From the NCBI GenBank assembly GCA_943329845.2, contig CALQFM020000012.1, positions 1 to 64,000 on the forward strand: a stretch of 64,000 bases of DNA, in the 5' to 3' direction. The notes beneath the pieces were generated by a model. It was not told the DNA's origin and ran no database searches. It saw only the letters and a program-made list of their open reading frames with translations. The translations under genes and the position numbers were made by a program. Shown here piece by piece: positions 6,671 through 33,788 of this stretch (within the stretch, counting starts at the first letter, position 1; the number at the start of each line of letters is the position of its first letter). The stretch comes from Candidatus Kuenenia stuttgartensis (GTDB taxonomy: Bacteria > Pseudomonadota > Alphaproteobacteria > SMXS01).

Positions 6671-7912
6671 TCAGTTGCGCTTGATGTCGCGGAACGGCCC
6701 GGTGTCGAAGCGGGCCTCCTTCGGCATGTCGAGCAGCCGCTCGGCTAGGATGTTGCGCTGGATTTCGTCGGTGCCGCCGGCGATCGAGACCGCGGGCACC
6801 GACACCAGGATTTCGGCGATTATCCCGCCATGCGGGCTGTCCGGCCCCGTCAGCATGGCGTCGATGCCGCTGATCGCCGTGTGCACGTCCGACGCCAACC
6901 GGGCAATCTGGCTGGCGGCCAGCTTGCTGATCGAGCCTTCCGCGCCGCGGGTCCTGCGCGCCTTCTGCGCCTCCCGGAAGCGGGCGGCATACCATTGCGC
7001 GGACTGATCGAGGATGAGCAGCCGGGCGATCTCCTGGCGGATTGCCGGATCGTGGATGGCGCCGGTTTCCTTCGCCCGCTCGATCACCAGGTCGACACGG
7101 CCGGCCCGTTGCGGATACCAGCTGTACGGCTCGTTGGCGACGGCGACCTCTTGACGGTATTCGTCGTAGATCCTGCCGGCCCGCCCGCCATCCTCGCGCG
7201 CCTCTCGCGACCGGGCGAAGCCGCTGCGTTCGTGCGCCAGCGTGGTGACGGCGACCGACCAGCCGCCGCCTTCCGAGCCGATCAGGTTTTCGGGCTTCAC
7301 CACCGCATCGGTGAAGAACACCTCGTTGAACGACGCGTGACCGTTCATCTGCTTCAACTGGCGGACCTCGACGCCGGGCTGGTGCATTTCGATGACGAAA
7401 TAGCTCAGGCCCTCGTGCTTGGGCAGGTCCCAGTCGGTCCGTGCCAGCAGCAGACCGTAATTGGCGTGGTGCGCGCTAGTGTTCCACACCTTCTGCCCGT
7501 TGACGATCCACTGGTTGCCGCGGCGCTCGGCGCGGGTGGTCGCGCCCGCCAGGTCCGATCCGCTGCCCGGTTCGCTGAACAGCTGGCACCACGCATCCTC
7601 GCCCGTCAGCACGCCCCGCAGGAACCGTCGCTTCTGGTCGTCATTGCCGTGCTCCAGCAGGGTCGCCGCCGCCAACGCCCGCACCCCGGCCTGCGCCGCG
7701 CCGATGGCGCCGGCCGCGGCAAGCTCTTCCGACACTGCCCGTACGGCCGCGGGGGGCAGGTTCCGGCCGTGGAACGCCTCGGGCCAGTCGGGCGCCGCCC
7801 AGCCGGCATCGACCAGCATGCCGCGCCATTCGACCAGCGAACGGTTCGGATCCCAGGTCGTGGCGAGCCAGGCCCGCACTTCGGCGCGAACGTCATCGAT
7901 CATGTTCGCCAT
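6671..7912 (-). CDS. Acyl-CoA dehydrogenase family protein, large subunit of a likely heteromer
   Basis: 413 residues starting MANMIDDVRAEV, one base after the stop of the partner gene, so the two are translationally coupled. It has the ACAD alpha-beta-alpha fold: FSEPGSGSDLAGATTRA (FAD/substrate loop), VNGQKVWNTSAHHANY, and the C-terminal AGGTDEIQRNILAERLL. At the position where canonical ACADs carry the catalytic Glu (YEGT), this protein has Gly (AGGT). That is usual for one subunit of heterotetrameric dehydrogenases such as the mycobacterial steroid side-chain enzymes. It probably oxidises a bulky acyl-CoA together with the upstream gene product. Substrate is inference. Confidence 0.87.
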   Translation of the reverse strand: MANMIDDVRAEVRAWLATTWDPNRSLVEWRGMLVDAGWAAPDWPEAFHGRNLPPAAVRAVSEELAAAGAIGAAQAGVRALAAATLLEHGNDDQKRRFLRGVLTGEDAWCQLFSEPGSGSDLAGATTRAERRGNQWIVNGQKVWNTSAHHANYGLLLARTDWDLPKHEGLSYFVIEMHQPGVEVRQLKQMNGHASFNEVFFTDAVVKPENLIGSEGGGWSVAVTTLAHERSGFARSREAREDGGRAGRIYDEYRQEVAVANEPYSWYPQRAGRVDLVIERAKETGAIHDPAIRQEIARLLILDQSAQWYAARFREAQKARRTRGAEGSISKLAASQIARLASDVHTAISGIDAMLTGPDSPHGGIIAEILVSVPAVSIAGGTDEIQRNILAERLLDMPKEARFDTGPFRDIKRN

Positions 7913-7913
7913 C

Positions 7914-9020
7914 TCAGACCCCCATCGCCTGCAGCATGCGTTCCCGGTGCTCGCCGGGCGTGCCCAGGAACACTTCCGAACTCTTGGCGCGCTTGAACCA
8001 CAGGTGCGTGTCGTTCTCCCATGTGAAGCCGATCCCGCCATGCAGCTGGATGCATTCCCGGGCGGCGCGCATGTAGACCTCGCTGGCCGCGGCTTTCGCG
8101 AGGCTCGCCGATGCCGTGGCGCTGTCGCCGTCGGCCAGTTGCTGCGCGGCCTGGTACGCGGCGGCTTTGGCCAGTTCGACATCGACCAGCAGATCCGCGA
8201 GGCGGTGCTTGATCGCCTGGAACGAGGCGATCGTCCGGCCGAACTGAACGCGGAGCTTGGTGTACTCGACCGCCGAGTCCAGCATCGCCTGCGCGCCACC
8301 GACGATCTCGTTGGCGAAGGACACGAGGACGGCGTCGAATATCCTGTCCAGAGGCGCCTGTCCCTCGATGCCCAGCAATTGCGCCGGCGCCGCGTCGAAA
8401 TCGATGTCGGCCAGCTTGCGGGTCGGGTCCATGACATTGGCGGCCGACCGGTGGACGCCGTCCGCGCGGGCGTCGACAATGAACAGGGAAACGCCGGCCG
8501 CCGAGCGGGCGGCGACGATGAGCTGGTCCGCGGTCTGGCCATCGACGACGAATCGCTTGCGGCCGTCGAGCTGCCAGCCATCGCCGGCCCGCGTGGCCGC
8601 GACGGTGATGTCGCTCTCGCTCCACAGGCCTGCGCGTTCGCAGATCGCCACGGTCGCGATGGTCGATCCGTCGGCGATGCCCGGCAGCAGCGCGTGCCTC
8701 TGATCCTCGCTCCCGGCCAGCAGGACCGCGTAGCCGGCCATGACCGCGCTCGCCAGGAACGGTGCGCAAAACAGCGTGCGGCCCTGTTCCTCCATGGCGA
8801 TGCCGAGCTCGACAGGTCCGTATCCGGCGCCGCCATAGGCTTCGGGCAGGTGCAGCCCCGCAAGGCCCATTTCGCCGCAGGCCTGGCGCCAGACGTCGGC
8901 GTCGAAGCCTTCGGCGGTCGCCATCAGCCTGCGCACGGCGCGCGGCGGCGACTTGTCCTTCAGGAAACGCGCCAGAATGTCCCTGAACTGCTCCTGTTCC
9001 GCTGAAAAGGCGAATTCCAT
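7914..9020 (-). CDS. Acyl-CoA dehydrogenase family protein, partner subunit
   Basis: 368 residues, first gene of a two-gene minus-strand unit. N-terminal ACAD helix bundle (FSAEQEQFRDILARFLKD), LHLPEAYGGAGYGPVELGI, and YTKLRVQFGRTIASFQAIKH, the RxQFGxxIxxFQ motif that contacts FAD across subunits. The C-terminal ECIQLHGGIGFTWENDTHLW corresponds to the usual Gly-Gly-x-Gly segment before the end helix. It is somewhat short for a complete homotetrameric ACAD, as expected for a heteromer. It is divergent from the HMG-CoA-synthase-like/thiolase pair, with 155 bases between starts; shared regulation is likely. FAD cofactor and an electron-transfer flavoprotein acceptor follow from the family. Confidence 0.87.
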   Translation of the reverse strand: MEFAFSAEQEQFRDILARFLKDKSPPRAVRRLMATAEGFDADVWRQACGEMGLAGLHLPEAYGGAGYGPVELGIAMEEQGRTLFCAPFLASAVMAGYAVLLAGSEDQRHALLPGIADGSTIATVAICERAGLWSESDITVAATRAGDGWQLDGRKRFVVDGQTADQLIVAARSAAGVSLFIVDARADGVHRSAANVMDPTRKLADIDFDAAPAQLLGIEGQAPLDRIFDAVLVSFANEIVGGAQAMLDSAVEYTKLRVQFGRTIASFQAIKHRLADLLVDVELAKAAAYQAAQQLADGDSATASASLAKAAASEVYMRAARECIQLHGGIGFTWENDTHLWFKRAKSSEVFLGTPGEHRERMLQAMGV

Positions 9021-9175
9021 CCCGTATCCCCGTTGCCGATGCGGCCAGGCGCGAGCCTACCCCCTGGCGGAGCGGTTGTTCCAGCCCTTAGCGCTGCCGC
9101 TTTTTGATTTGAAGCACACACATGCGCCGTTAAGCTGCCCGTACCGATCGGAAACAAAATGGGGAGATGGGCTCG

Positions 9176-10636
9176 GTGACTAGTGCGGGGATTACTGCGT
9201 TCGGCGCCTATATTCCGCGGCTGCGCCTCAACCGCGCCAGCATCGCGGCCGCGCACAAATGGGCCATGCCCGGCCTGCGCGGCATGGCCAAGGGCGAACG
9301 CTCCATGTGCAACTGGGACGAGGACGCCATCACCATGGCGGTCGAAGCCGCGCGCGACTGCCTGACCGGCCGCGAGCGGTCGGACATCGGCGGCGTGTAC
9401 TTCGCCTCGACGACCCTGCCGTTCCTCGACCGGCAGAACGCCGGCGTCATCAGCGCTGCCCTCAACCTGGAGCACGGCATTTCGTCGCTCGACATCGCCG
9501 GCTCGCAGCGGGCCGGTACGTCGGCGCTGATCGCGGCGCTCAGAGGCGCAGACACGGGCGACACGTTGCTGGCCGCCGCCGACGCGCGCAAGGCCCGGCC
9601 GGCCAGCTCGGGCGAGATGCAGTTCGGCCACGGCGCCGCGGCCCTGACGATCGGCACCGGCAACATCATCGCCAGGCTCGTCGGCAGCTACACGGTCACC
9701 ACCGACTTCGTCGACCACTTCCGCGGCGAGGGCCAGGAATTCGACTATGGCTGGGAAGAGCGGTGGATCCGCGAGGAAGGCTATTCGAAGATCGTCCCGC
9801 AGGCGGTGAAGGCGGTGCTCGACAAGTCGGGCATCGCGGGCAGCAAGATCTCGCGCTTTGTCATGCCCTGCACCATGAAGGGCATCCCCGAAAAGATCGC
9901 CAAGGACTTCGGCATTCCGGCCGAGGCCGTCGCCGACACCATGGGCGAGGTCTGCGGCGACACCGGCGCGGCGCACGCGCTGCTCATGCTGGTGGCCGCG
10001 CTGGAGAAGGCCAAGCCTGGCGACCTGATCCTGGTCGCTTCGTTCGGGCAGGGCGCCGACGCCATCCTGCTCGAGGTGACCGACGCGATCACGAAGCTGC
10101 CAAAGCGCGAAGGCGTGTCCGGCGCGCTGGCGCGGGGCCGCAGGGAAGAGGACTACATGAAGTTCCTCTCCTTCCAGGACAATGTGAAGCTGGACTGGGG
10201 CATGCGCGGCGAGGTCGACAACAAGACCGCGCTGTCGAGCGAGTACCGCAACAAGGACATGGTCACCGGCTTCACCGGCGGCAAGTGCACGGTCTGCGGT
10301 ACGGTGCAGTTCCCGCGTACACACTACTGCGTCAACCCGAACTGCCAGGCGCTCGACTCTCAGGAGCCCTATTCGTTTGCCGACAGTCCGGCGCGGGTTA
10401 TGTCATTCACGGCGGACTGGCTGTCCTACAATCCCAGCCCGCCGTTCTTCTACGGCCAGGTACAGTTCGAAACCGGCGGCAGGGTGCTGATGGGTTTCAC
10501 CGACACGGACGCGGGGCAGATCGAGGTGGGTTCATCCCTCAAGATGATGTTCCGCATCAAGGACTTCGATCACGACAGGGGTTACCGCCGCTATTTCTGG
10601 AAGGCGGCACCGGTTTCAACAGGCAAGGAGGCCTGA
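9176..10636 (+). CDS. HMG-CoA-synthase-like protein fused to a DUF35 zinc-ribbon/OB-fold domain
   Basis: 486 residues from GTG 9176, chosen because GGGGAG lies nine bases upstream; ATG 9167 has that motif directly abutting it. Residues about 1-320 follow the HMG-CoA-synthase/thiolase fold (GAYIPRLRLNR, RQNAGVISAALNL, SQRAGTSALIAAL, ASFGQGADAILLEV). Compared with HMG-CoA synthases, the Glu, Cys and His of the catalytic triad appear as Thr, Gln and Val. Residues about 370-486 form a DUF35 unit: a rubredoxin-like zinc knuckle (CTVCGTVQFPRTHYC followed by VNPNC) and an OB-fold, usually an acyl-CoA-binding scaffold. The next gene is a thiolase three bases away. It may chaperone or channel CoA substrate for that thiolase; reaction unknown. 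Confidence 0.85.
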   Translation: MTSAGITAFGAYIPRLRLNRASIAAAHKWAMPGLRGMAKGERSMCNWDEDAITMAVEAARDCLTGRERSDIGGVYFASTTLPFLDRQNAGVISAALNLEHGISSLDIAGSQRAGTSALIAALRGADTGDTLLAAADARKARPASSGEMQFGHGAAALTIGTGNIIARLVGSYTVTTDFVDHFRGEGQEFDYGWEERWIREEGYSKIVPQAVKAVLDKSGIAGSKISRFVMPCTMKGIPEKIAKDFGIPAEAVADTMGEVCGDTGAAHALLMLVAALEKAKPGDLILVASFGQGADAILLEVTDAITKLPKREGVSGALARGRREEDYMKFLSFQDNVKLDWGMRGEVDNKTALSSEYRNKDMVTGFTGGKCTVCGTVQFPRTHYCVNPNCQALDSQEPYSFADSPARVMSFTADWLSYNPSPPFFYGQVQFETGGRVLMGFTDTDAGQIEVGSSLKMMFRIKDFDHDRGYRRYFWKAAPVSTGKEA

Positions 10637-10638
10637 AC

Positions 10639-11838
10639 ATGGCACGGGGAATTCGCGACAAGGTCGCCATCATCGGCATGGGTTGCAGCAAGTTCGGCGA
10701 GCGCTGGGACGCGAACGCCGAGGATCTGATCGTCGAGGCGTTCAACGAGGCGCTCACCGACGCCGGCATCGAGAAGAACCAGATCGAGGCGGCCTGGTTC
10801 GGCACCGCCTTCGACCGGGTGCATGTGGGCGCCTCGGCGCTGCCGCTGTCGACGGCGCTGCGGCTGTCCAGCATCCCGGTGACCCGCGTCGAGAACATGT
10901 GCGCGACGGGCACCGAGGCGCTGCGCGGCGCCACCTACGCGGTCGCCTCGGGCGCCTGCGACATCGCGCTGGCATTGGGCGTCGAGAAGCTGAAGGACAC
11001 CGGCTATGGCGGCCTTCCGGCCGGCTCGCGCGGCCCGCTGCCCGATCTGTGGGTGCCGAACGGCTCGGCGCCGGGTAACTTCGCCCAGCTGGCCACGGCG
11101 TACTCGGCCAAGCACGGCGTCTCGGCCAAGGACCTGAAGGAGGCCATCGGCCACGTCTCGTGGAAGAGCCACCAGAACGGCGCCAAGAACGCCAAGGCAC
11201 ACCTGCAGAAGCCGGTGCCCATGGAAACCATCCTGGGCGCGCAGATGATCGCCGAGCCGCTTGGCCTGTTCGATTGCTGCGGCGTCAGCGACGGCTCGGC
11301 CTGCGCGATCGTCACCACGCCTGAGATCGCCAAGGCGCTGGGCAAGCACGACATCGTCTCCATCAAGGCGCTGCAATTGTGCCTGTCCGACGGCGTCGAG
11401 AGCACCTTCAACACCTGGGACGGCAGCCATTTCGCCACCACCCGCGTGGCGGCGAAGAAGGCCTATGAGGAAGCCGGCATCAAGGATCCGCGCAAGGAAC
11501 TCAGCATGATCGAGGTGCATGACTGCTTCTCGATCACCGAGCTGGTGACCATGGAGGACCTCTACATCTCGGCCGAAGGCCAGGCGGTGAAGGACGTCAT
11601 GGACGGCTTCTACGATGCCGACGGCCCGGTGCCGTGCCAGATCGACGGCGGCCTGAAATGCTTCGGCCACCCGATCGGCGCCTCGGGCCTGCGCATGGTC
11701 TACGAAGTCTATCTCCAGCTGCTGGGCCGCGCCGGCCCCCGCCAGCTGAAGAACCCGACCTTCGGCCTGACCCACAATCTGGGCGGCGCGCCGCACTCGA
11801 ACGTCTCGGCGATCTCGGTGATCGGCCGGTATAACTGA
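10639..11838 (+). CDS. SCP2/SCPx-type thiolase (acetyl-CoA acetyltransferase family)
   Basis: 399 residues; the ATG lies two bases after the previous stop, and AGGAGG lies within the end of the previous gene. Thiolase residues are present: nucleophilic Cys in ENMCATGTEALRGA, His in EVHDCFSITEL (the HDCF form found in SCP2-type thiolases instead of NEAF), and CFGHPIGASGLRM. The lack of the usual C-terminal CxG Cys and the NLGGAPHSNVSA ending also fit SCP2-type enzymes, which cleave 3-oxoacyl-CoAs or act as retro-aldolases in steroid side-chain breakdown. Working with the DUF35-bearing neighbour is an inference from the operon and from known thiolase/DUF35 complexes. Confidence 0.88.
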   Translation: MARGIRDKVAIIGMGCSKFGERWDANAEDLIVEAFNEALTDAGIEKNQIEAAWFGTAFDRVHVGASALPLSTALRLSSIPVTRVENMCATGTEALRGATYAVASGACDIALALGVEKLKDTGYGGLPAGSRGPLPDLWVPNGSAPGNFAQLATAYSAKHGVSAKDLKEAIGHVSWKSHQNGAKNAKAHLQKPVPMETILGAQMIAEPLGLFDCCGVSDGSACAIVTTPEIAKALGKHDIVSIKALQLCLSDGVESTFNTWDGSHFATTRVAAKKAYEEAGIKDPRKELSMIEVHDCFSITELVTMEDLYISAEGQAVKDVMDGFYDADGPVPCQIDGGLKCFGHPIGASGLRMVYEVYLQLLGRAGPRQLKNPTFGLTHNLGGAPHSNVSAISVIGRYN

Positions 11839-11889: not shown

Positions 11890-12243
11890 ATGTCGTTCTG
11901 GGTCTACATCTTGAGGTGCAGCGACGGCTCGTATTACACCGGGCAGACGGACGATATCGAGAATCGGTTCGCTGAACATCAGAACGGTATCAAGTGCATC
12001 TATACGAAAAGGCGCCGGCCGGTAGGACTCGTCTTCTCCGAGTATTTCGCGACGCGTGACGAAGCCCGTGACGCGGAGCGGCAAATCAAGGGCTGGACCC
12101 GTCGGAAAAAGGAAGCGTTGATAAAACGCGACTGGGACGAACTGGTCAGGTTATCGAACCTCAAGGCAGAGTCGCTTCCCCGGTTCGCGCAACCTGTTGA
12201 AGACGATGGCTTGCGCGATACTCAAATTTCACCGTGTCCCTGA
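11890..12243 (+). CDS. GIY-YIG nuclease superfamily protein (UPF0213-like)
   Basis: 117 residues. The start FWVYILRCSDGSYYTGQTDD holds the VYIL (GIY) and YYTG (YIG) strands, followed by the conserved Arg in IENRFAEHQNG and the Glu in the helix AERQIKGW. These single-domain proteins are common, have a fold able to cut DNA, and mostly lack a known role. The last eight codons and the stop are supplied by a 29-bp intergenic repeat arm (from 12230), so the original C-terminus may have been altered by the repeat. No strong ribosome-binding site precedes the ATG. Confidence 0.9.
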   Translation: MSFWVYILRCSDGSYYTGQTDDIENRFAEHQNGIKCIYTKRRRPVGLVFSEYFATRDEARDAERQIKGWTRRKKEALIKRDWDELVRLSNLKAESLPRFAQPVEDDGLRDTQISPCP

Positions 12244-12337: not shown

Positions 12338-14434
12338 TTACCCCTTCCCATCTTTCGTCTCATGCGCCCGCCTGATCACATAGGCGCGGATCGCCTCCGC
12401 ATCCTCGGCGTTGAGCTGCTCGCCGAAGTCGGCCATGCCGTTTTCCTTCAGGGCGCCGTCGATGACCACCGCGTGCCAGGCGTCCTTTGTCTTCATGCTG
12501 GCCGACCAGCGCAGGTCGGGCACCACGCCCGAGCCGATGGCCGCGCCGCCGTGGCAGACCTGGCAGAAGCGGTGGAACAGGGCGCGGCCATGGGCGACAG
12601 TGTCGTCGCTGGCGGTCTGCGGCGGCGGGTCGGGCGGTGGCGGCGGCGTCATGTCGAGCGGCGGCAGCTTGGCCGTTCCGCCCAGCTTGAAGGTCAGCAC
12701 CCTTGCCTTGCGGAACCGTGTGGACTCGGGTGTGAAATAGCCGGCGCCGATGCCGAAGGCGCCGCCCCAGCCGGCCATGACGCTGACATACTGCTCGCCA
12801 TTCACCTCGTAGGTGATCGGCGCGGCCATCACGCCGGTCTGCGCGGCGGCCTCCCATACCTTGTTTCCGCTGTCGGCCTTGTAGGCGACCAGCCGGCCGT
12901 CGGCGGTGCCCTGGAACAGCAGGCCGCCGGCGGTGGCGAGGACGCCGCCGTTCCATGGCCCGTCATATTGGACGTTCCATACCTCCGTCTGGGTCACCGG
13001 GTTCCAGGCCGAGAGCTTGCCCTTGACCATCGCCCTTGCTGCCTTGCGCTGGGCCTCGTCGTCGGGCAGCGAGGCGATGACCATGTCGGTGCCCGTGTTG
13101 TAGCGGCCGGGATACACATTGAACGGGTCGTCGGTCTTGTAGAGCGACGCCATCTCCAGCGCCGGGATGTAGACCAGCCCGGTCTTCGGGCTGTAGGCCA
13201 TGGGCTGCCAGTTGTGGGCGCCCAGCGGCGACGGCGCCACCAGCGCCGGCTTCAGCCTGTAGCGCGCCGCCTCGTTCTCGATCGGCCGGCCGGAATGGGG
13301 GTCGATCCCCTTCGCCCAGGTCACCGGCACGAAGTTCCGCGCCGAGATGAACGCGCCCGTTGCCCGGTCCAGCACGTAGAAGAAGCCGTTCTTCGGCGCC
13401 TGCATGATCACCTTGCGCACCTGGCCGTCGATGGTCAGGTCGGCCAGGATCATGTGCTGGGTGGCGGTATAGTCCCAGGTCTCGCCCGGCGTGGTCTGGT
13501 AATGCCAGACATAGGCGCCGGTATCCGGGTTGAGCGCGACGATCGAGGCCAGGAACAGATTGTCGCCGCCCGCCGGGCTGCGGATCTGCTGGTTCCATGG
13601 CGACCCGTTGCCGACGCCGATATACAGCAGGTTCAGCTCGGGATCGTAGGCCATGGAGTCGTAGACGGTGCCGCCGCCGCCCATGGTCCACCATTCGCCG
13701 TCCCAGGTCTGGGCGGCCTCCTTCAGGACGTCGGACTCGAACACGTCGGCCGGATGCCCCGGCACGGTGTAGAACCGCCAGTCCAGCGCGCCGGTATCGG
13801 CGTCGTAGGCACTGACATAGCCGCGCACGCCGTACTCGGCGCCGCCATTGCCGATGATCACCTTGTCCTTTACCACGCGCGGCGCGCCGGTGATGGTATA
13901 GGGCTTGGTCCTGTCGATGGTGCTGACGTCCCAGACCGGCTTGCCGGTCGCCGCGTCGAGCGCCACCAGCCGACCGTCGATGGTGCCGACGAACACCTTG
14001 CCCTTCCAGACAGCCGCGCCGCGGTTGACCACGTCGCAGCAGGCGTGGACGCCCCATTCCTTCGGCACCTTCGGGTCGTAGGACCACAGCAGCGTGCCGG
14101 TGGCGGCATCGAGCGCGTAGACCAGGCTCCACGCGCTGGTGGTGTACATCACGCCGTCGACGACGATGGCGGTCGCCTCGATGCCGCGGGTGGTGTCGAG
14201 GTCGTGGTACCAGGCGAGACCCAGCTTCGGGACCGTCGCTGCGTTGACCGCTTCGAGCGGGCTGTAGCGCTGCTCGGAATAGGTCCGGCCCGTGCTCATC
14301 CAGTTGCCGGGCTCCAGGTCGGCATTGGCCAGGCGCGTCTCGTCGACCGCGGCGGGACCCGAGGGTTTTTCCTCCTGCTTGCCGCACGCGAGCAGCATTG
14401 CCGCGACCAGCACCGCAGGCAGTACGCGCATCAT
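12338..14434 (-). CDS. PQQ-dependent quinohemoprotein dehydrogenase with C-terminal cytochrome c, predicted lipoprotein
   Basis: About 698 residues from ATG 14434 (ATG 14431 is equally possible). It starts with a lipoprotein signal ([17 protein letters not shown], lipobox LLAC), so it is probably tethered in the periplasm. The beta-propeller has the vicinal cysteines of PQQ alcohol dehydrogenases (VHACCDVV), [10 protein letters not shown], the catalytic Asp in ETWDYTATQ, and repeated AxDxxTG blade motifs. After a proline-rich linker (residues about 590-605) comes a c-type heme domain, FCQVCHGG, with a Met ligand likely in GMADFGEQL. It oxidises alcohols and passes electrons to heme. No PQQ biosynthesis genes or partner cytochrome are nearby. 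Confidence 0.92.
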
Positions 14435-14604
14435 CGCCCTCACGGCATGAACCCCGTTTCCCGTGTTCCCCGTCAGGACGCTAGCGCACGGGCGCACCGC
14501 TGACATCCTGATTCTTGTGGAGAACGCCGCGTCGGGCATCCCGCCCGCGTTCGGGGCCCGTACGCGGGGTTGTATTTCCCGCCCGGCGTCCCATTATCAG
14601 AGTC

Positions 14605-20602: not shown

Positions 20603-22138
20603 TCACCTGACAGGGACGAGTTGCTCCAGCGGGGTTCCCTGGAAGGACGCCTGCCGAACGCCGACCAGGGCCGCGAGCGACGGCGCCAGATCGATCACCG
20701 GGACATCGTCGTTGAGCCGGCGTGGCGAAAAACCCGGGCCGGACAGCATGAATAGGCCGCCGGGCCTGTGGTCGGCGACACGGTTCGTCGCGTGCGGATG
20801 GCGGAGCCGGCCGATTGTCGGCGACGACACCGATACGATGGGTGCGTCGCGGTTCCAGACGACGAGCAGATCGGGGAGTATGCCGGCCAGCGGCCCATGG
20901 AAATCGTCCCGAGTGCGGGTGATCTCGGACACCAGCGGTTCGCCGGTGTCATCGTTGCGCACGGCGAGGAGTTCCGCGATCAGCCAGTCGCAATACGCTT
21001 CGTAGTCCTCCGGTCGCACCTTGCCGCCGGGATCCCGGCCCGCCAGGCTGATGCGGACGCCGCTGCTGCGGTCGGCGCAATAGACCTCGTGGCACCGGCG
21101 CGTCGCGGCGCCCGGCAGCAGGTCGCGCTCGGCATAGAGCCTGTCCCTTGCCGGCAGGTGCAGGGGCTGCAGCGCGTGCCGCACCGGCGTCGGCAGCATC
21201 CGCCACACGCGCCGCGCCTGGGTGAGGACGGCATTGCGCGTCTCGTTAAGTTCGCCGTTCAACCGCGCCAGGATGCGGTCGAGCAGCCGGGAACCCGTGT
21301 GGGCGTGCTCCATGCCGTGGCTCAGATACACCATTACGTCGGCGCCGCCGGCCTCGGCCGTCAGCGCACCCACGGCATCGTCGATCGCCGTGTAGATCGC
21401 GAGCAGCGGGTTGCCGACGCTGGCGGCCAGCCCGGCGTCGAAGTCGTGGCCCGAGCCCTCCTGCAGGTGCCAGCAATAGTGGCCGCCGCAGTGGCTGTCC
21501 TCGAAATTGACCAGGCAGAAATCCCACGCCTCCTGGCGCATCAGGTCGACGGAAAGAGCCGTCTTGGCGCGCACCCGCTGCACCAGGGCGTCGCGGAACC
21601 ACGCGATCTCCTCGGCCGTGCTGGGCTGGTAGTAGTCGCAGGGCCGTCCGTCCAGCGGATCCTCGCCATAGTCCCGCACGATGCGGTCGCGCAGTTCCGG
21701 CGGATGGGTTCGCAGGACTAGCCGGCTCCTGCCCTCCTGCGGATGGTGCGAGAACCAGTTGATCACCCGGATGCCCTTCGCGTCGGCGCCCTCTGGGACG
21801 ACCGGCACCTCGATAACCATGGTGCGCTTGCCTGCATCCTCCAGGACCGACCAGATCGGGCGCACTTCCGGCATGGCGCCGCGGCGTTCGGCGACCGTGG
21901 CGAGGTCGCGGGAGCCGTCGAAGATGCCGTGGACGCTGGGATCGGCGCCATAGCAGAAGCTGGGCCAGACGGACCCGGCGTCGAGGTTGCGGGGGTTGCG
22001 GACGCGGCCGCTCACCGAGGCCGACATATGCCGCGCCAGATTCGGCAGCCAGCCCTCGGCCATCCATGCCTCGGCGCGGCTCGGATCGAATGAATCCAGT
22101 CCGATTACCAAAATCCTGGCCTGGTCGCGCTGAGTCAT
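20603..22138 (-). CDS. Alkaline-phosphatase-superfamily phosphodiesterase, paralogue 1
   Basis: 511 residues from ATG 22138 (GAGGGG upstream). It matches the type I phosphodiesterase/nucleotide pyrophosphatase branch: VIGLDSFDPSRAEAWM (first metal-site strand), SVWPSFCYGADPSVHGIFDG (nucleophile region with conserved Ser and the HG), EDSHCGGHYCWHL, YLSHGMEHAHTGSRL, DHRPGGLFMLSGPGF and VIDLAPSLAALVG. These are the metal and catalytic segments. There is no signal peptide, so a cytosolic enzyme acting on a phosphodiester or phospho-substrate is expected; the true substrate is unknown. It is the first of three paralogues in this region (next at 22207 and 24669). Confidence 0.82.
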   Translation of the reverse strand: MTQRDQARILVIGLDSFDPSRAEAWMAEGWLPNLARHMSASVSGRVRNPRNLDAGSVWPSFCYGADPSVHGIFDGSRDLATVAERRGAMPEVRPIWSVLEDAGKRTMVIEVPVVPEGADAKGIRVINWFSHHPQEGRSRLVLRTHPPELRDRIVRDYGEDPLDGRPCDYYQPSTAEEIAWFRDALVQRVRAKTALSVDLMRQEAWDFCLVNFEDSHCGGHYCWHLQEGSGHDFDAGLAASVGNPLLAIYTAIDDAVGALTAEAGGADVMVYLSHGMEHAHTGSRLLDRILARLNGELNETRNAVLTQARRVWRMLPTPVRHALQPLHLPARDRLYAERDLLPGAATRRCHEVYCADRSSGVRISLAGRDPGGKVRPEDYEAYCDWLIAELLAVRNDDTGEPLVSEITRTRDDFHGPLAGILPDLLVVWNRDAPIVSVSSPTIGRLRHPHATNRVADHRPGGLFMLSGPGFSPRRLNDDVPVIDLAPSLAALVGVRQASFQGTPLEQLVPVR

Positions 22139-22206
22139 CTGCGAGCCCCTCGCAGCAAGGCTAGCAAGACGCCGGGGCGCAGGCAATGCGGCCGCCGCGG
22201 CCTGCG

Positions 22207-23745
22207 TCACCTGACGGGCGCGAGCTGCTCCAGCGCGTGCCCCTGGAAGGCCGCCGACCGCACGCCGAACAGCGCCGTGAGCGACGGCGCCAGATCGATC
22301 ACCGGGACATCTTCGTTGAGGCGGCGCGGCGTGAAGCCGGGCCCGGCCAGCAGGAAAAAGCCATCGGGGCTGTGATCACCGGTCCGGATCGACGGATGCG
22401 GATGCCGGATGCGGCCGATGGACGGCGACGAGACGGACGGGATTGGCGCGTGCCGGTTCCAGGTCACCAGCAGATCCGGCAGCGTGTCGGACATCGGGCC
22501 GGTGTAATGGTCGCGGATGCGGATGATCTCGCGGGCCAGCTTTTCACCGGTACCGTCGTTGCGCACCGAGCCGATCTCCCCGATCAGCCACTCGCAGAAA
22601 GCGTCATACTCGGCGCCTGGCTGAATCACGCCGTGCGGGTCGCGCCCCGCGAGATTGATCCTGATGCCGCTGCCGCGTTCCCCGGTATAGACCTCGTGGC
22701 ACTTGCGGCCTGCGGACGCAGGCAAAAACCCGTCGCCGTAAAGCGGCTGCTTGATCGCGCTATGCAATGGGCGAAGAATTCTCCACAGAGGCGCCGGGAG
22801 CGCTCGCCAGGCGTCACGCGCCCGGGTGAGCGTATCATTGCGGGCTTCGTCCAGTTCGCCGTTCAGTTTCGCCAGAATGCGGTCGAGCAGGCGCAGGCCG
22901 GTATGGGCGGGCTCGATACCGTGGCTCATGAAGACCAGCACGGTCGCCTCGCCGCCGGCCTCGCGGACGAGGGCGCCGACCGCCTCGTCCATGGCCATGT
23001 AGAGTGTCTGGAGCGGGTTGCCGATCTGGGCGGCGATCCGCGCGTCCTCGCCCGAAGGCGCGACGAGGTGGGCGCTGTGATGCGCGGCGCAATGGGAGTC
23101 CTCAAAGACGACGAGGAAGAAATCCCAGGGCTCCCGGTGCATCAGGTCGATGGCAAGCGCCGTCTTCGTCCGCACCCGCAGGATCAAGGCGTCGCGGAAC
23201 CAACCCTGTTCGGCGGCGGTGCGGGGCTGGTGGAAATCGCACATCCGCCCATCCAGCGGGTCGCCCGCATAGTCGCGTGCGATGATGTCGCGCAGTTCGG
23301 GAGGATGGGTCGTCAGGGCGAGCCTTGAGCTGCCTTCCGGCGGCAGGTGGGAGAACCAGTTGACGACGCGGATACCCGTCGGCGCGGCGCCGTCGGGCAC
23401 GACTGGAACCTCGATGACGATCGAGCGGCGCCCGGCATCCTCCAGGATCGACCAGAGCGGTCGGACGACGGGGGCGCCGGCGCAATCCTTTCCGGCGAGA
23501 ACCTTCCCGCGGTCGCGGCTGCCGTCGGCCATGCCGTGGACACCGGGATCGGCGCCGTAGGAAAAGCTCGACCAGACGGAGGCCGCTTCCAGTCCGTGGG
23601 GATTCTGGACGCGGCCGGTGACCGACGCCGTCATCAGTGCCGCGAGATGCGGCAGCTTGCCCTCGTCCATCCATGTCTGTGCCAGCACGGGATCGAAAGA
23701 ATCGAGGCCAATCACCAGAACCTTGGTGTCGTCGGACGTTGTCAT
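22207..23745 (-). CDS. Alkaline-phosphatase-superfamily phosphodiesterase, paralogue 2
   Basis: 512 residues from ATG 23745 with AGGGGGG upstream. It aligns with paralogue 1 along its whole length: VIGLDSFDPVLAQTWM, SVWSSFSYGADPGVHGMADG, EDSHCAAHHSAHL, FMSHGIEPAHTGLRL, DHSPDGFFLLAGPGF and VIDLAPSLTALFG. All conserved histidines seen in copy 1 are kept. The shared ending (VPVIDLAPSL...LEQL.PVR) shows a tandem duplication. The 68-base gap between copies 1 and 2 is short, so one transcript is possible. Substrate unknown; no signal peptide. Confidence 0.82.
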   Translation of the reverse strand: MTTSDDTKVLVIGLDSFDPVLAQTWMDEGKLPHLAALMTASVTGRVQNPHGLEAASVWSSFSYGADPGVHGMADGSRDRGKVLAGKDCAGAPVVRPLWSILEDAGRRSIVIEVPVVPDGAAPTGIRVVNWFSHLPPEGSSRLALTTHPPELRDIIARDYAGDPLDGRMCDFHQPRTAAEQGWFRDALILRVRTKTALAIDLMHREPWDFFLVVFEDSHCAAHHSAHLVAPSGEDARIAAQIGNPLQTLYMAMDEAVGALVREAGGEATVLVFMSHGIEPAHTGLRLLDRILAKLNGELDEARNDTLTRARDAWRALPAPLWRILRPLHSAIKQPLYGDGFLPASAGRKCHEVYTGERGSGIRINLAGRDPHGVIQPGAEYDAFCEWLIGEIGSVRNDGTGEKLAREIIRIRDHYTGPMSDTLPDLLVTWNRHAPIPSVSSPSIGRIRHPHPSIRTGDHSPDGFFLLAGPGFTPRRLNEDVPVIDLAPSLTALFGVRSAAFQGHALEQLAPVR

Positions 23746-23954
23746 GAAACCCCCTAGCCACCACACGCTAGCAACCTGGCGTGCGGGAGGCAACTCGGCC
23801 AGCCGCCCACGCCCAAGCCGCCCGCCGCGGGAGCATGCCTTGCGGGTTTTGTCCGGATAGTCCTGACGGAGCCAGCACGCCGGTGTTATGCTACCGCGCG
23901 CCTGGAACCAGGGCCTCGGGGGAGGCGGGCCGGGCTCGGAAAAAGGGGACTGGC

Positions 23955-24641
23955 ATGCTCAAGAAATTAAGCGCGGAATTCATCGGAACGTTCTGGCTCG
24001 TGTTCGGGGGCTGCGGCTCGGCGATCCTGGCCGCCGTATTCAACGACGTTGGCATCGAGCTGGCGGGCGTTTCGCTTGCCTTCGGCCTCACCGTGCTGAC
24101 CATGGCCTATGCTCTGGGCCACGTCTCCGGCGGCCACTTCAATCCTGCGGTGACCATCGGCCTGTGGGTGGGCGGCCGCTGCCCCGCGGGCGACGTTGTC
24201 CCCTACATCGTGGTTCAGACCGTCGGCGCCATCGCCGCGGCGGGCGTCCTCTACGTCATCGCCAGCGGCGCGCCCGGCTTCGAGGTCGGCGGCTTTGCGG
24301 CCAACGGCTTCGGCGAGCATTCGCCAGGCGGCTATAGCCTGGTCGCCTGCCTGGTCGCCGAGGCGGTACTGACCGCGGGCTTCCTGATCGTCATCATGGG
24401 CGCCACCGACAGCCGCGCGCCGGCCGGCTTCGCGCCGCTGGCCATCGGCCTGGCGCTGACTCTGATTCATCTGATCAGCATTCCCGTCACCAACACCTCG
24501 GTTAACCCGGCACGCAGCACCGGGCCGGCGATCATTGTCGGCGGCTGGGCGTTGCATCAGTTATGGCTGTTCTGGGTGGCTCCGATCGTCGGCGGCGTCA
24601 TCGGCGCGGGCGCCTATCGGACCGTGTTCGGCAGCAAGTAG
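23955..24641 (+). CDS. aqpZ: Aquaporin Z (MIP family water channel)
   Basis: 228 residues, six transmembrane helices. The two half-helix NPA motifs are present: [17 protein letters not shown] and [14 protein letters not shown]. Phe-like aromatic, His (LTLIHLI), Thr and Arg (NPARS) at the selectivity positions resemble the water-selective AqpZ. Length is normal for the family, and AAAGGGG precedes the ATG. It lies on the opposite strand between two paralogous phosphodiesterase genes. Whether that has meaning is unclear; the insertion breaks the otherwise collinear array. Confidence 0.92.
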
Positions 24642-24668
24642 GCGGTCATCGGGCTGCGTCGGACGGGG

Positions 24669-26216
24669 TCACGCTCCGCCCGGCGCAAGTCCCGCATGGA
24701 TCTGACCCTGGAATCCAGCGGTCGGCAGGCCCATCAGCGCGGTCAGCGACGGCGCCAGGTCGATGATGTCGATGTCGTCGTTGAGCCGGCGAGGCGCAAC
24801 GCCCGGTCCGTTCAGCAGCAGCATCGCGTGCGGGCGGTGATCGCCCGTGCGGATGGTCGGATGCGGGTGAACCAGACGTCCGATGGCAGGCGAAGATACC
24901 ACCCGGATAGGCCGGCCGCGGTTCCAGGTGACCAGCAGGTCCGGGAGGGTATGGGTCCTGGGTCCGTCATAGAGATCGCGGGTGCGGACGATATGCGCAA
25001 CCAGCGGTTCGCCCGTTTCGTCGTTGCGCACCTCGCCGAGCTGGACGATCAGCCTGTCGCACAGCGCCTCGTATTCCGCGCCGGGCTGGACGGTGCCTCG
25101 AGATTCCCGGCCCACCAGGTTGATCCTGATGCCGCTGGTCCGCTCGTTGCAGTAGGTCTCGAAACACAGGCGCGTTTCGGGAGCAGGCAGGAAGCCGTCG
25201 CGGTAGAATGAGTCCCGCGCGGCATTGTGCAGCGGGCGCAGGCGGTGGCGCAGCGGCAGGGGCAGCGTGCGCCACGCCCTGCGCAGGCCGGTGATCATCC
25301 TGTTGCGGCCTTCGGACATCTCGCCATTGAGGCGCGCCAGAACCCGGTCGAGCAGCCGCAGACCGGTGTAGCCGGTGCCAATGCCCTGGCTCATCAGCGT
25401 CAGGACCGTCACGTCCGATCCGGCCGCGCGCACGATCTCGCCGAGGGCGTCGTCGATGGCGATGTAGATGGTCTTCAGCGGGTTGCCGACAGCGGCGGCC
25501 ACCGCAGGATCGTATTCCTCGTGCGATGGGTCGTTCAGGTGCCAGCAATGGTGCCCCGCGCAATGGGCGTCGGTGAACGTGACCATGAAGAAATTCCATT
25601 CCTCCCGTGCCACCAGGTCCAGCGTCAGCCGGCGCTTGATCCGCACGCGCTGGAGCAGGGCGTCGGTGAAGCAGCGCAGCTGGGCGGCGGTGCGCGGCTG
25701 ATGGAAGTCGCACATGTGTCCGCCGAGTGGGTCGCGGCCGTATTCCTCTTCGATAACCTCCTTCAACTCGGGCGGGAAGGTCCGCAGCCGCATCGTGGCG
25801 CCGCTTTCGGCCGGCACGTGGGCGAACCAGTCGGTGACCTGCATGCCGCGCCTGGCGCCGATGTCGGGCGGTGTCACCGCATCGATCACGATCGATCTGC
25901 CGCCGGCCTCGTCGACACGCGACCAGAAGGGCCGAAAGGCGACGTCCCCGGCGCGGAGGGCGCCGATTTCGTAGGTCTCGGGGTCGAGATGGCGCATGCC
26001 GTCATAGAGCCCATGGTGGCTGGGATCGCAGCCATAGGCGAAACTCGGCCACAGCGAGCCGGATTCCATGCCGACAGGATTGCGTAAGCCGGCGGCGATA
26101 CCGGTGGTGATCTGCGCCGCCAGATTGGGCAGCGCGCCTTCGTCCATCCAGCGTTGCGCCAGGCCCCTGTCGAAGGAATCGAGGCCGATAACGAGAAGTT
26201 TTCCGTGGCGTGTCAT
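24669..26216 (-). CDS. Alkaline-phosphatase-superfamily phosphodiesterase, paralogue 3 (two conserved His lost)
   Basis: 515 residues from ATG 26216 (GGAGGGG upstream; a GTG at 26231 would add five). It matches paralogues 1 and 2: VIGLDSFDRGLAQRWM, SLWPSFAYGCDPSHHGLYDG, TDAHCAGHHCWHL, DHRPHAMLLLNGPG and IIDLAPSLTALMG. However, the block that reads SHGMEHAHTG and SHGIEPAHTG in copies 1 and 2 reads SQGIGTGYTG here. The first His (residue about 277) is Gln and the second is Tyr. If these bind metal, this copy has changed activity or is a non-catalytic partner. Otherwise the fold looks intact. Confidence 0.82.
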   Translation of the reverse strand: MTRHGKLLVIGLDSFDRGLAQRWMDEGALPNLAAQITTGIAAGLRNPVGMESGSLWPSFAYGCDPSHHGLYDGMRHLDPETYEIGALRAGDVAFRPFWSRVDEAGGRSIVIDAVTPPDIGARRGMQVTDWFAHVPAESGATMRLRTFPPELKEVIEEEYGRDPLGGHMCDFHQPRTAAQLRCFTDALLQRVRIKRRLTLDLVAREEWNFFMVTFTDAHCAGHHCWHLNDPSHEEYDPAVAAAVGNPLKTIYIAIDDALGEIVRAAGSDVTVLTLMSQGIGTGYTGLRLLDRVLARLNGEMSEGRNRMITGLRRAWRTLPLPLRHRLRPLHNAARDSFYRDGFLPAPETRLCFETYCNERTSGIRINLVGRESRGTVQPGAEYEALCDRLIVQLGEVRNDETGEPLVAHIVRTRDLYDGPRTHTLPDLLVTWNRGRPIRVVSSPAIGRLVHPHPTIRTGDHRPHAMLLLNGPGVAPRRLNDDIDIIDLAPSLTALMGLPTAGFQGQIHAGLAPGGA

Positions 26217-26293
26217 GGGCCCCTCCGCCACAGCCTAGGACTTCGGTCGCCGGGCGGCAACCTGGGCAAAAGGGATCGGCGGGAAGGGAGGGG

Positions 26294-29382: not shown

Positions 29383-30231
29383 TCAGTCGTCGTGGGGCCT
29401 GCGGTTGGGGGCAACGGGGTACAGGTTGGCGAAGCTGGCGTCGCGCTTCTCGCGGAACGCGGTGACGCCCTCGCGCAGATCACGACCGCCGACAAGCGTC
29501 GCCGCGGTCCAGATCGCCACATAGTTGAGGCTGTCGGCGACGCTGTGGTCGCGGGCGTAGTTCATCAGTTCCTTGGAGCCGTGGACGGCGAGCGGCGATT
29601 TCCCGGCAATTCCCCGGGCGATCTCCATGACCGCCGCAATCATGTCCTCATGTGTGTCATAGACCTTGTTGACGTACCCCACGTCCCTCGCTTCGTCGCC
29701 ATACATGCGGCGGCCGGTGAACGCCAGTTCGCGGGCGATCCCGGCGGGAATCAGGCGCGGCAGGCGCTGCAGCGTGCCCAGGTCCGGCGCCATGCCGATA
29801 TTCACTTCCTGAACCACGAAGAACGCATCCTTCGTGCAATAGCGCATGTCGGCGCAGACGGTCATGTCGAGGCCGCCGCCGACGCACGCGCCCTGGATGG
29901 CGGCGAGCACCGGATAGCGGCATCTTTCGATTCGGCTCAGCCGGTCGTGCAGATCGAGCAGATGGCGGCGGAACGCCTCGCGCTTGCGTCCCTCGTCCTC
30001 GTCGCTGAGCGCGTTGAGGCTCTTGAACGAGTTGAGGTCGAGGCCGGCGCAGAAGTGCTTGCCGGTCGACGACAGCACCACCACGCGCACGTCGTCGCGC
30101 GCCTCGATGGCCTCGAACGCGGCGGGAAACTCCACCCAGAAGTCCGGGTTGAGGCTGTTGAACGCGTCGGGACGGTTCAGGATCACGTGAGCGATCTGGT
30201 CCTTCACCTCTAGCTTGACGGCTTTGGGCAT
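29383..30231 (-). CDS. Crotonase-family enzyme, delta(3,5)-delta(2,4)-dienoyl-CoA isomerase-like
   Basis: 282 residues of the crotonase fold. KHFCAGLDLNSFKSL forms the oxyanion-hole region and AIQGACVGGGLDM the second Gly-rich segment. VQEVNIGMAPDLGTLQRLP carries Glu and Asp at the spacing of the two catalytic acids of ECH1-type dienoyl-CoA isomerases. These move the double bonds of odd-position unsaturated acyl-CoA so beta-oxidation can continue. It sits downstream of the beta-oxidation genes and is separated from them by a hairpin repeat. The call over plain enoyl-CoA hydratase rests on the Glu/Asp pattern. Confidence 0.85.
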   Translation of the reverse strand: MPKAVKLEVKDQIAHVILNRPDAFNSLNPDFWVEFPAAFEAIEARDDVRVVVLSSTGKHFCAGLDLNSFKSLNALSDEDEGRKREAFRRHLLDLHDRLSRIERCRYPVLAAIQGACVGGGLDMTVCADMRYCTKDAFFVVQEVNIGMAPDLGTLQRLPRLIPAGIARELAFTGRRMYGDEARDVGYVNKVYDTHEDMIAAVMEIARGIAGKSPLAVHGSKELMNYARDHSVADSLNYVAIWTAATLVGGRDLREGVTAFREKRDASFANLYPVAPNRRPHDD

Positions 30232-30268
30232 AGTGCTTTCCTGTCAGTGATTTACGCTCACGGCGATT

Positions 30269-30360
30269 GCCCCTCACCCTACCCTCTCCCAGAGGGAGAG
30301 GGAAAGAAATGGCACACTCCATAGAACCCTCTCCCATTGGGAGAGGGTAGGGTGAGGGGC
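30269..30360. repeat. Paired-hairpin inverted repeat (REP/BIME-like)
   Basis: A 23-bp perfect inverted repeat with arms 30269-30291 and 30338-30360 (GCCCCTCACCCTACCCTCTC pattern). Each arm is also followed by its own short stem (CCCTCTCCC with GGGAGAGGG). So two small hairpins lie head to head, 46 bases apart. This sort of element is common between proteobacterial genes. Here it lies between two co-directional minus-strand genes and may stabilise or attenuate the mRNA. Confidence 0.88.
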
Positions 30361-30371
30361 GTTGTCTCCGC

Positions 30372-32534
30372 TTACTCCGCCGCTGCCTTCGCCTTCCGCC
30401 CGTAGAAGGTTTCGCCCCTGGCCGCCATGTCGCGCAGCAGCTTGGGCGGGGCGAATCGGGCGCCGTATTGCTGGGCGAGGCGGTCGCACTCGCGCACGAA
30501 CGCCTCGACACCTACCGCGTCGATCAGGCTGAACGGCCCGCCGGTGAACGGCGCGAAGCCCCAGCCGAAGATCGCGCCGATATCGCCGTCGGCGGGATCG
30601 GTCAGCACGTTCTCCTCGAGGCAGCGGGCGGCTTCCACCGCCTGCCGGTAGAGGAAGCGCTTCTTCACCTCGGCCACGTCGGGCTGGTCGGCGGCGGACG
30701 GCCAGTTTTCGGTCAGGCCGGGCCACAGGAACTTCTTCCCGCCTTCCGGATACTCGTAATAGCCCTTGCCGGCCTTCTTCCCGAGGCGGCCCAGTTCCAT
30801 CAGCTTGTCGACGATGTGGTCACCCGGTGCGGGCTTGTAAGCGTCACCGAGATCCTTCTTGGTCTGCTCGCGGACCTTGTAGCCCAGCTCGATCGACACC
30901 GCGTCGCCCACGTCGAGCGGCCCGACCGGCATGCCGGCCTGCTTGCCGCCATTTTCGATCAGCGCCGGGACCAGCCCGTCCGCCAGCATGGCGAGGCCTT
31001 CGGCCACATAGGTGCCGAAGCAGCGCGAGGTGTAGAAGCCGCGGCTGTCGTTGACCACGATCGGCGTCTTGCGGATCTGGCCCACATAGTCCATGGCGCG
31101 GGCCAGCGTCTCCTGCGAGGTTTCCTTGCCCATGATGATCTCGACCAGCGGCATGCGGTCGACGGGCGAGAAGAAGTGCAGGCCGATGAAGTCCTGCGGA
31201 CGCGAGAAGCTCTTGGCCAGCCCGGTGATCGGCAGGGTCGAGGTGTTGGAGGCGAACACCGGCAGGTTGGGGATCGCAGCCTCGGTCTTGCGGGTGACGC
31301 CGTCCTTGATCTCGCGGTTCTCGAACACCGCCTCGATCACCAGGTCGCAGCCCTTCAGGTCGTCATAGGACGTGGTCGGCTTGATGCGGTCGAGCAAGGC
31401 CTGGCCCTTCTCGGCGTTGACCTTGCCGCGCTGTACGCCCTTGTCGACCAGGCCCTGCGAATAGGCCTTGCCCTTCTCGGCGGCCTCGATGGTGGTGTCG
31501 AGCAGGATCACGTCCATGCCGGCCTGGGCGGACACATAGGCGATGCCCGCGCCCATCATGCCGGCGCCCAGCACGCCCAGCGTCTTCACCTGGAACTTGT
31601 CGACGCCCTTCGGCCGGCGGGCCAGCTTGTCGGCCGCCTGCTTGTTGAGGAACAGTGAGCGGATCATGGCCTTCGATGACGGATCCATCATCAGCTTGGT
31701 GAAGTAGCGGCTCTCGATCCTGAGCGCGGCGTCCATCGGCACCTGATGGCCTTCATAGACACAGGACAGGATCGCCTGGACCGCCGGATAGTTGCCCAGC
31801 GTCTCCTTCTGCACCATGGCGTTGCCGCCGGTGAAGGTCTGGACGATGCCCGGGTTGAAGGCGCCTTCGCCGCCCGGCACCTTGAAGCCTTTCTTGTCCC
31901 AGGGCTGGACCGGATCGCCCTTTTCCCTGATCCACGCCTTGGCGCGGGCGACGATCTCGGAAAGCGGCGCCAGCTCGTGGACCACGTTGCCGGCCTTGGC
32001 TTGCTGGGGCGAGATGGAGTCGCCCTTAACCAGCAGCATTAACGATGCCTGCACGCCCATCAGGCGGGGCAGGCGCTGGGTGCCGCCGCCGCCGGGGAGC
32101 AGGCCTACCTTCACCTCGGGCAGGGCGAGCTGGATCTTCGGATCGTCGGCGCAGACCCGGTAGTGGCAGGCGAGCGTGATCTCGAGGCCGCCGCCCATGG
32201 CGAGGCCGTTGATCGCCGCGGCGAACGGCTTGCCGCAGGTCTCCATGCGGCGCATCTGGCCGTTCATGGCATAGGCGGCCTTGAACATATCGGCGACCGA
32301 GGCGCTGCCGGCCTGCGAGCCCAGCATGTCGAGGTCGGCGCCAGCGAGGAACGCGGGCTTGCCGGAGGTGATGACCGCGCCCTTGATGGCCGGGTCGGTG
32401 GCGACCTTCTCGATCAGTTCGGACAGGTCGCGCGAGACCGCGGCGTTGATCACGTTCATGGACCGGCCGGGCAGGTCGATGGTGAGGAGGGCGATGCCGT
32501 CGCTATCGACCTCGAACTTGATGGTTACGGTCAT
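30372..32534 (-). CDS. fadB: Fatty-acid oxidation multifunctional protein: enoyl-CoA hydratase/3-hydroxyacyl-CoA dehydrogenase
   Basis: 720 residues. Residues 1-190 form a crotonase domain with [18 protein letters not shown] and [20 protein letters not shown], where the two catalytic Glu are kept. Residues about 310-490 form the NAD-binding domain ([20 protein letters not shown]), then [16 protein letters not shown] with the catalytic His, and [19 protein letters not shown]-terminal dehydrogenase helical domain completes it. It hydrates trans-2-enoyl-CoA and oxidises the L-3-hydroxy product. It lies between the thiolase and the isomerase-like gene in one operon, in the expected order. Annotated as FadB or FadJ type. 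Confidence 0.93.
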
Positions 32535-32556
32535 TGTCTTGCTCCCGATTCGGCGC

Positions 32557-33762: not shown

Positions 33763-33788
33763 GGGTCTGGTCCTTTGGGTGCGAATTG

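Follow-up and report, generated by a model that had tools for sequence, protein, structure and literature searches.

In the archaeal complex of thiolase, 3-hydroxy-3-methylglutaryl-coenzyme A (HMG-CoA) synthase (HMGS) and DUF35 protein (6ESQ), coenzyme A (CoA) sits at an interface built by all three proteins (PMC6392133). The HMGS of this complex is catalytic (Glu82 and Cys114 in the Methanothermococcus enzyme; PMC6392133) and its DUF35 protein is a separate chain. PhlACB (5M3K) likewise combines three parts: subunit A has the HMGS fold, B is a DUF35 protein and C is thiolase-like. PhlA, however, lacks the Cys and the Glu; only residues of PhlC are catalytic, PhlB forms the bridge, and the three subunits together line one cavity (PMC6392133). 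PhlACB, CsATase (9SKH) and MucABC (9VBO) are all made of separate subunits and perform biosynthetic C-acylation. In benzoylsuccinyl-CoA thiolase BbsAB (7PXP), DUF35 is bound to an SCP2-type thiolase for a degradative thiolytic step, but there is no HMGS-like subunit. In the steroid side-chain aldolases ChsH2-Ltp2 and Shy-Sal, a DUF35-bearing protein binds a thiolase-fold enzyme of steroid catabolism, the DUF35 of Shy being fused to a MaoC domain. The locus considered here lies in a 64,000-nucleotide stretch, the window, from an assembly filed under Candidatus Kuenenia stuttgartensis (GCA_943329845.2, contig CALQFM020000012.1, positions 1 to 64,000, forward strand; GTDB class Alphaproteobacteria). 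It encodes an HMGS-like domain and DUF35 in one polypeptide, next to an SCP2-type thiolase. The unit has the same three parts as the archaeal complex, but its HMGS-like domain has lost the catalytic triad, its DUF35 is fused and its context is catabolic. The fusion protein is probably a pseudoenzyme subunit, complexed with the thiolase for the thiolytic cleavage of bulky or branched 3-ketoacyl-CoA.

The genes and domains of the unit are as follows.

9167..10636, + strand: coding sequence of 489 residues, HMGS-like (thiolase superfamily) domain plus DUF35 (open reading frame, profile, model)
9185..10201, + strand: HMGS-like domain, residues 7-345 (profile match, Foldseek)
10259..10615, + strand: DUF35, a rubredoxin-like zinc ribbon plus OB fold, residues 365-483 (6esq_E match, Pfam, model)
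10286..10345, + strand: zinc-ribbon cysteines Cys374, Cys377, Cys388 and Cys393 (each present in 72 of 73 sequences)
10639..11838, + strand: coding sequence of 399 residues, SCP2-type thiolase, presumed catalytic partner (PRK06157 match)

The original prediction, which was made from the sequence alone, had the HMGS fold and DUF35 joined in a single chain, and profiles, alignment and model all bear this out. It took the fusion gene to start at 9176, where an alternative in-frame GTG start lies. The match to archaeal HMG-CoA synthase covers residues ~7-341, with both profile scores under the family cutoffs (NCBIfam PRK04262, 187.5 bits against 244; TIGR00748, 138 bits against 353). The best structural matches of the predicted fold, found with Foldseek, are the archaeal HMGS of the thiolase/HMGS/DUF35 complex (6esq/6et9, TM 0.88-0.90 by target length), followed by CsATase A, PhlA and MucA. 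The structure 1tvz is matched too and, with 6esq_I and 6et9_I, places the domain in the HMGS-type thiolase-superfamily fold. By sequence search the closest is CsATase A (1e-31).

The C-terminal part has the DUF35 architecture of a Cys4 zinc ribbon followed by an OB fold. Residues 369-394 resemble the ChsH2 zinc ribbon (zf-ChsH2) and residues 409-463 the DUF35 OB fold (OB_ChsH2_C), each slightly under the Pfam cutoff on its own, and the DUF35 of the archaeal complex (6esq_E) aligns to residues 368-484. Desulfobacterial relatives of the fusion protein exceed the OB-fold cutoff. The AlphaFold2 model of the full 489-residue chain, built on a 73-homologue alignment, has a pLDDT of 91.6 and a pTM of 0.93, and these high whole-chain values suggest that the HMGS-like and DUF35 domains pack in a defined arrangement. 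Zinc-ribbon cysteines have been lost from the fusion proteins of two other loci (L091, 10007-11452; L097, 4980-6410), so zinc seems to be dispensable in some members.

The residues on which condensation depends in HMGS are gone from the fused domain. Positions were set by alignment to Methanothermococcus HMGS, with the numbering checked against the Cys114 and Glu82 of PMC6392133; the alignment gives the third triad residue, a catalytic His in this family, as His238.

9410..9412, + strand: Thr82 codon, at the place of archaeal HMGS Glu82 (alignment)
9506..9508, + strand: Gln114 codon, at the place of archaeal HMGS Cys114 (alignment)
9866..9868, + strand: Pro234 codon, at the place of HMGS His238 (alignment)

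By eye, the triad had first been read as Thr, Gln and Val; the first two hold, and the third, Val232, is two residues off, the correct residue being Pro234. In the close family of 73 homologues Thr82 is present in 72, Gln114 in 68 and Pro234 in 71. Since the same replacements recur in these sequences and homologues occur in all sampled genomes of the genus, they are due neither to chance nor to sequence error. The loss extends to a wider sample of 18 DUF35-fused proteins (Proteobacteria, Actinobacteria and haloarchaea): Cys114 and Glu82 are absent from all of them, and a single one, from Sphingopyxis, has His at position 234. A true HMG-CoA synthase with an atypical active site would suit the fold and the profile matches to HMGS families, but with all three catalytic residues gone and both profile scores below cutoff it is extremely improbable. 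No HMG-CoA reductase was found in the host genome (completeness 100% as the tool reports it), nor any archaeal-type HMGS above cutoff. HMG-CoA synthase activity was rejected on the triad, the scores and the missing reductase.

The replaced pocket could in principle house another reaction, and this was the second of two options originally offered. The domain might then, for instance, hydrolyse acyl-CoA or act as a decarboxylase of the KSQ kind, through Gln114 or through Cys48, His184, Glu197 and Arg199. KSQ domains have Gln in place of Cys, as do 68 of the 73 close homologues at position 114, and Cys48, Asp183-His184, Glu197 and Arg199 are, like Gln114, near-invariant or invariant in the close family. 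However, the His thought to be needed for KSQ decarboxylation is Pro here, and the Glu is Thr. Moreover, the wider fused clade varies at residue 114 (Q, L, P, R, A, T or a gap), so Gln marks the close family and not the entire clade; a universal KSQ-like role for it was rejected on this ground. Cys48 and His184 are not retained in the wider clade either. A different chemistry is thus unlikely, even though the close family keeps its own near-invariant residues.

In contrast to the emptied pocket of the fusion protein, the active site of the adjacent thiolase is intact.

10900..10902, + strand: nucleophile Cys88 (66 of 66 sequences)
11518..11526, + strand: His294-Asp295-Cys296, HDCF motif (66 of 66 sequences)
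11668..11670, + strand: His344, GHP motif (66 of 66 sequences)

Cys341 is likewise unchanged in all 66. An SCP2-type thiolase next door had been predicted, and the complete 399-residue gene duly scores 681 bits against NCBIfam PRK06157 (cutoff 403); its ATG at 10639 leaves a gap of 2 bp after the fusion gene, not three bases as first stated. The best solved match to the profile of the thiolase family is the thiolase of the archaeal complex (6esq_A), above SCP2 thiolases and BbsB. An 859-residue open reading frame at 9259-11838, considered as a larger thiolase, is merely the thiolase frame read through the upstream gene. Steroid aldolases of the Ltp2/Sal kind are marked by loss of the nucleophilic Cys and by the motif YD(H/C)(F/Y) (PMC12329534); in Sal, Gly stands in place of the Cys, and both Sal and Ltp2 act as aldolases. 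The window enzyme differs on both counts, its invariant Cys88, HDCF and GHP fitting a thiolase and not a Sal-type aldolase.

The pairing of the two genes is nearly invariable. In a scan across species genomes, 76 loci turned up in Alpha-, Beta-, Gamma- and Deltaproteobacteria. Of 398 genomes sampled from the phylum, ~2.5% have a strong match. Among 81 loci with at least 2.5 kb of downstream DNA, a thiolase adjoins the fusion gene in 80; in 77 it lies directly downstream on the same strand within 1.9 kb, and in three haloarchaeal loci directly upstream. The sole locus without an adjacent thiolase (L040, after 8737) is in an assembly with runs of N. All 21 loci from related genomes (L109-L129) have the adjacent thiolase. 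Such a search for the same fusion and neighbourhood in other genomes had been proposed at the outset as a check.

The two genes also appear to have been inherited together. Homologues occur in all seven genomes sampled from the genus, with two copies in six and one in the incomplete G004. In the host genome itself, the second copy of the unit is on contig C21 (L014, 8506-12092) and is 54% and 71% identical to the window unit; both are retained in nearly all genomes of the family. The distance matrices of fusion protein and thiolase correlate at 0.91, a value reached in none of 2000 permutations. The thiolase is the better conserved (mean distance 0.28 against 0.48 for the fusion protein), and the faster divergence of the latter is what would be expected of a decaying fossil gene kept only through its place in the operon. 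Such decay is very improbable, given an open frame, co-inheritance, two old paralogues kept in nearly all sampled genomes of the family, residues invariant over 73 sequences and the further domain fusions described below.

A maximum-likelihood tree of the HMGS-like domain (unrooted, with some long rows, and with reference rows transcribed from printed alignments) has a single branch, with support of 100/98, that sets all the fused proteins, from Proteobacteria, Actinobacteria and haloarchaea, apart from archaeal HMGS, PhlA, CsATase A, MucA and an unfused Priestia protein. The simplest reading is one fusion event with triad loss. The tree also bears on whether the unit might be a biosynthetic C-acyltransferase of the PhlACB kind, working in the Friedel-Crafts or Claisen direction on a natural product. 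The closest solved relatives do include PhlA, CsATase A and MucA, and the window locus encodes a PhlACB-like set of parts together, with A and B fused and C adjacent; PhlACB-type systems are further characterised by an (A2C2)2B4 assembly and CoA-independent C-acyl transfer. However, those A subunits are unfused and lie across the tree split, the fusion protein does not group with PhlA, and the thiolase is a PRK06157 member, nearer to 6esq_A than to PhlC. The neighbours of the fused loci are acyl-CoA dehydrogenases, short-chain dehydrogenases/reductases (SDRs), MaoC hydratases, CoA transferases and CoA ligases, with no nonribosomal peptide synthetase (NRPS) or polyketide synthase; NRPS genes do adjoin the unfused Priestia relative. 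A biosynthetic role is therefore quite improbable.

A non-condensing partner of the thiolase, the first of the two options in the original prediction, is favoured because the fused proteins have no triad, the thiolase site is intact, the adjacency is near-invariable and PhlA provides a precedent. We infer a complex in which the HMGS-like domain is inactive and on which the thiolase probably depends. The fusion chain would supply the A and B parts and assemble with the downstream thiolase as in the archaeal complex and PhlACB. All carbon-carbon bond chemistry would fall to Cys88, Cys296, His294 and His344 of the thiolase, with DUF35 bridging the thiolase and the HMGS-like domain. The vacated pocket may help to shape the acyl/CoA cavity, and the fusion protein would hold the CoA. 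Physiologically, the complex would most likely thiolyse a 3-ketoacyl-CoA that is bulky or branched, as part of a catabolic beta-oxidation resembling that of peroxisomes (MFE-2/SCPx type).

The link to MFE-2 comes from relatives of the unit. In Desulfobacteria the fusion proteins are 788-938 residues long and extend into an SDR domain, mostly followed by an SCP2 domain. This SDR is of the MFE-2 kind: it matches a fungal MFE-2 (2et6, a (3R)-hydroxyacyl-CoA dehydrogenase that contains two SDR units) at 1.7e-132 and 17beta-HSD4 (1gz6) at 2e-91, but the top '3-oxoacyl-ACP reductase' (acyl carrier protein) chain only at 2e-41. The gene upstream in Desulfatibacillum alkenivorans and one other member encodes hydratase 2, SDR and SCP2 in a single protein, the domain set of peroxisomal MFE-2. 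Two desulfobacterial loci (L089, 3805-5916; L052, 3825-5933) have the full MFE-2 set in permuted order beside a second SDR-SCP2 that is fused to the pseudo-HMGS. Such operons thus resemble peroxisomal MFE-2 plus SCPx in having hydratase 2, (3R)-hydroxyacyl-CoA dehydrogenase, SCP2 and an SCP2-type thiolase; eukaryotic MFE-2 and SCPx are not known to have an HMGS-like or DUF35 part. Plasmid loci of Sphingomonas, Variovorax, Azoarcus, Sphingopyxis and Novosphingobium have the unit among catabolic genes in varying combinations, which include an MFE-2-like SDR, a MaoC or MFE-2 hydratase-2 protein, an acyl-CoA dehydrogenase and a CoA transferase or CoA ligase. More tentatively, the clade could be a bacterial and archaeal counterpart of peroxisomal MFE-2/SCPx built around a pseudoenzyme, whose emptied pocket channels 3-ketoacyl-CoA from the (3R)-hydroxyacyl-CoA dehydrogenase (part of the same polypeptide in Desulfobacteria) to the thiolase, a former second active site thus serving as a channelling chamber for steroids and other bulky acyl-CoAs; this is possible, but we would not regard it as probable.

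Some observations weigh against a catabolic pseudoenzyme subunit in the window. The MFE-2 link is strong for the relatives but indirect for the window unit, whose neighbours include no MFE-2 genes; the host encodes its MFE-2-like SDR and hydratase 2 on other contigs. Two adjoining acyl-CoA dehydrogenase genes (6671-9020, - strand; 368 and 413 residues), divergent from the fusion gene, resemble the two-gene acyl-CoA dehydrogenases of steroid catabolism, but as a candidate component of the unit they were rejected, not being retained beside it in relatives. The near-invariant polar residues Cys48, His184, Glu197 and Arg199 could reflect a retained activity. Finally, the correlation of the distance matrices owes in part to shared ancestry.

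The same unit may account for a gene of estradiol degradation. In Novosphingobium sp. ES2-1 (L099) it is flanked on one side by an SDR and an acyl-CoA dehydrogenase and on the other by enoyl-CoA hydratases, a lipid-transfer protein, a DUF35 protein and a P450. The estradiol edc cluster of N. tardaugens has been described with this same gene order in its operon OpA (PMC7793797). Within OpA, EGO55_13555 is named HMG-CoA synthase and is one of two genes that the authors left unassigned; in their view a condensation made no sense. Deletion of the entire OpA abolishes growth on estrogens (PMC7793797). The ES2-1 protein shares 32% identity with the window protein; it belongs to the same clade of triad-less fusions and has Thr, Leu and Ser where the triad would be. 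By synteny alone, EGO55_13555 may thus belong to the fusion family, and it would then be the partner of the neighbouring thiolase.

Database names such as HMG-CoA synthase, 3-oxoacyl-ACP synthase III or OB-fold protein imply a biosynthetic step that is senseless in this context; relatives are labelled 'OB-fold domain-containing protein' or '3-oxoacyl-ACP synthase III C-terminal domain-containing protein'. If the fusion protein is indeed a thiolase partner, the same renaming would apply to catabolic clusters of Proteobacteria, Actinobacteria and haloarchaea, the unit would illustrate how an enzyme can turn into a scaffold, and a single operon would hold a bacterial relative of the peroxisomal beta-oxidation system. 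The kind of complex is already known, as is a triad-less A subunit within it (PhlA). The fusion of A and B and the catabolic setting appear to be new, as do the connection with MFE-2 beta-oxidation and the account of the edc gene. A literature search, with most subscription journals outside its scope, found no description of the fused triad-less clade as such, and a paper on a tomato Sphingobium yielded no information about the edc gene. The PhlACB precedent makes the scaffold idea less new, but the MFE-2 and estradiol-cluster contexts make it more specific.

Other genes lie near the two copies of the unit. The C21 copy is followed by an SDR, an arrangement kept in the genus, with a Rieske oxygenase and further SDR genes close by; in the window, a protein encoded at 56250-57605 (+ strand) shares ~35% identity with the Rieske-type oxygenase encoded close to the C21 unit. 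Just past the window thiolase, at 11890-12243 (+ strand), is a gene for a 117-residue protein that reads as GIY-YIG nuclease-like. It is followed at 12338-14539 (- strand) by a methanol/ethanol-type dehydrogenase dependent on pyrroloquinoline quinone (TIGR03075, 668 bits against a cutoff of 480) whose C-terminal part is cytochrome-like, and this gene stays downstream of the unit in three relatives (L015, L016 and L018). Standard beta-oxidation seems to be encoded separately, by what looks like an ordinary fad operon at 29383-36004 (- strand) with, by eye, an enoyl-CoA hydratase, a 720-residue FadJ-like protein, a 401-residue thiolase, a 596-residue acyl-CoA dehydrogenase and a MerR regulator. 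At 20603-26231 (- strand) three neighbouring genes encode proteins of 520-535 residues with a 'VLVIGLDSFD'-like stretch near the start, which look like tandem paralogues.

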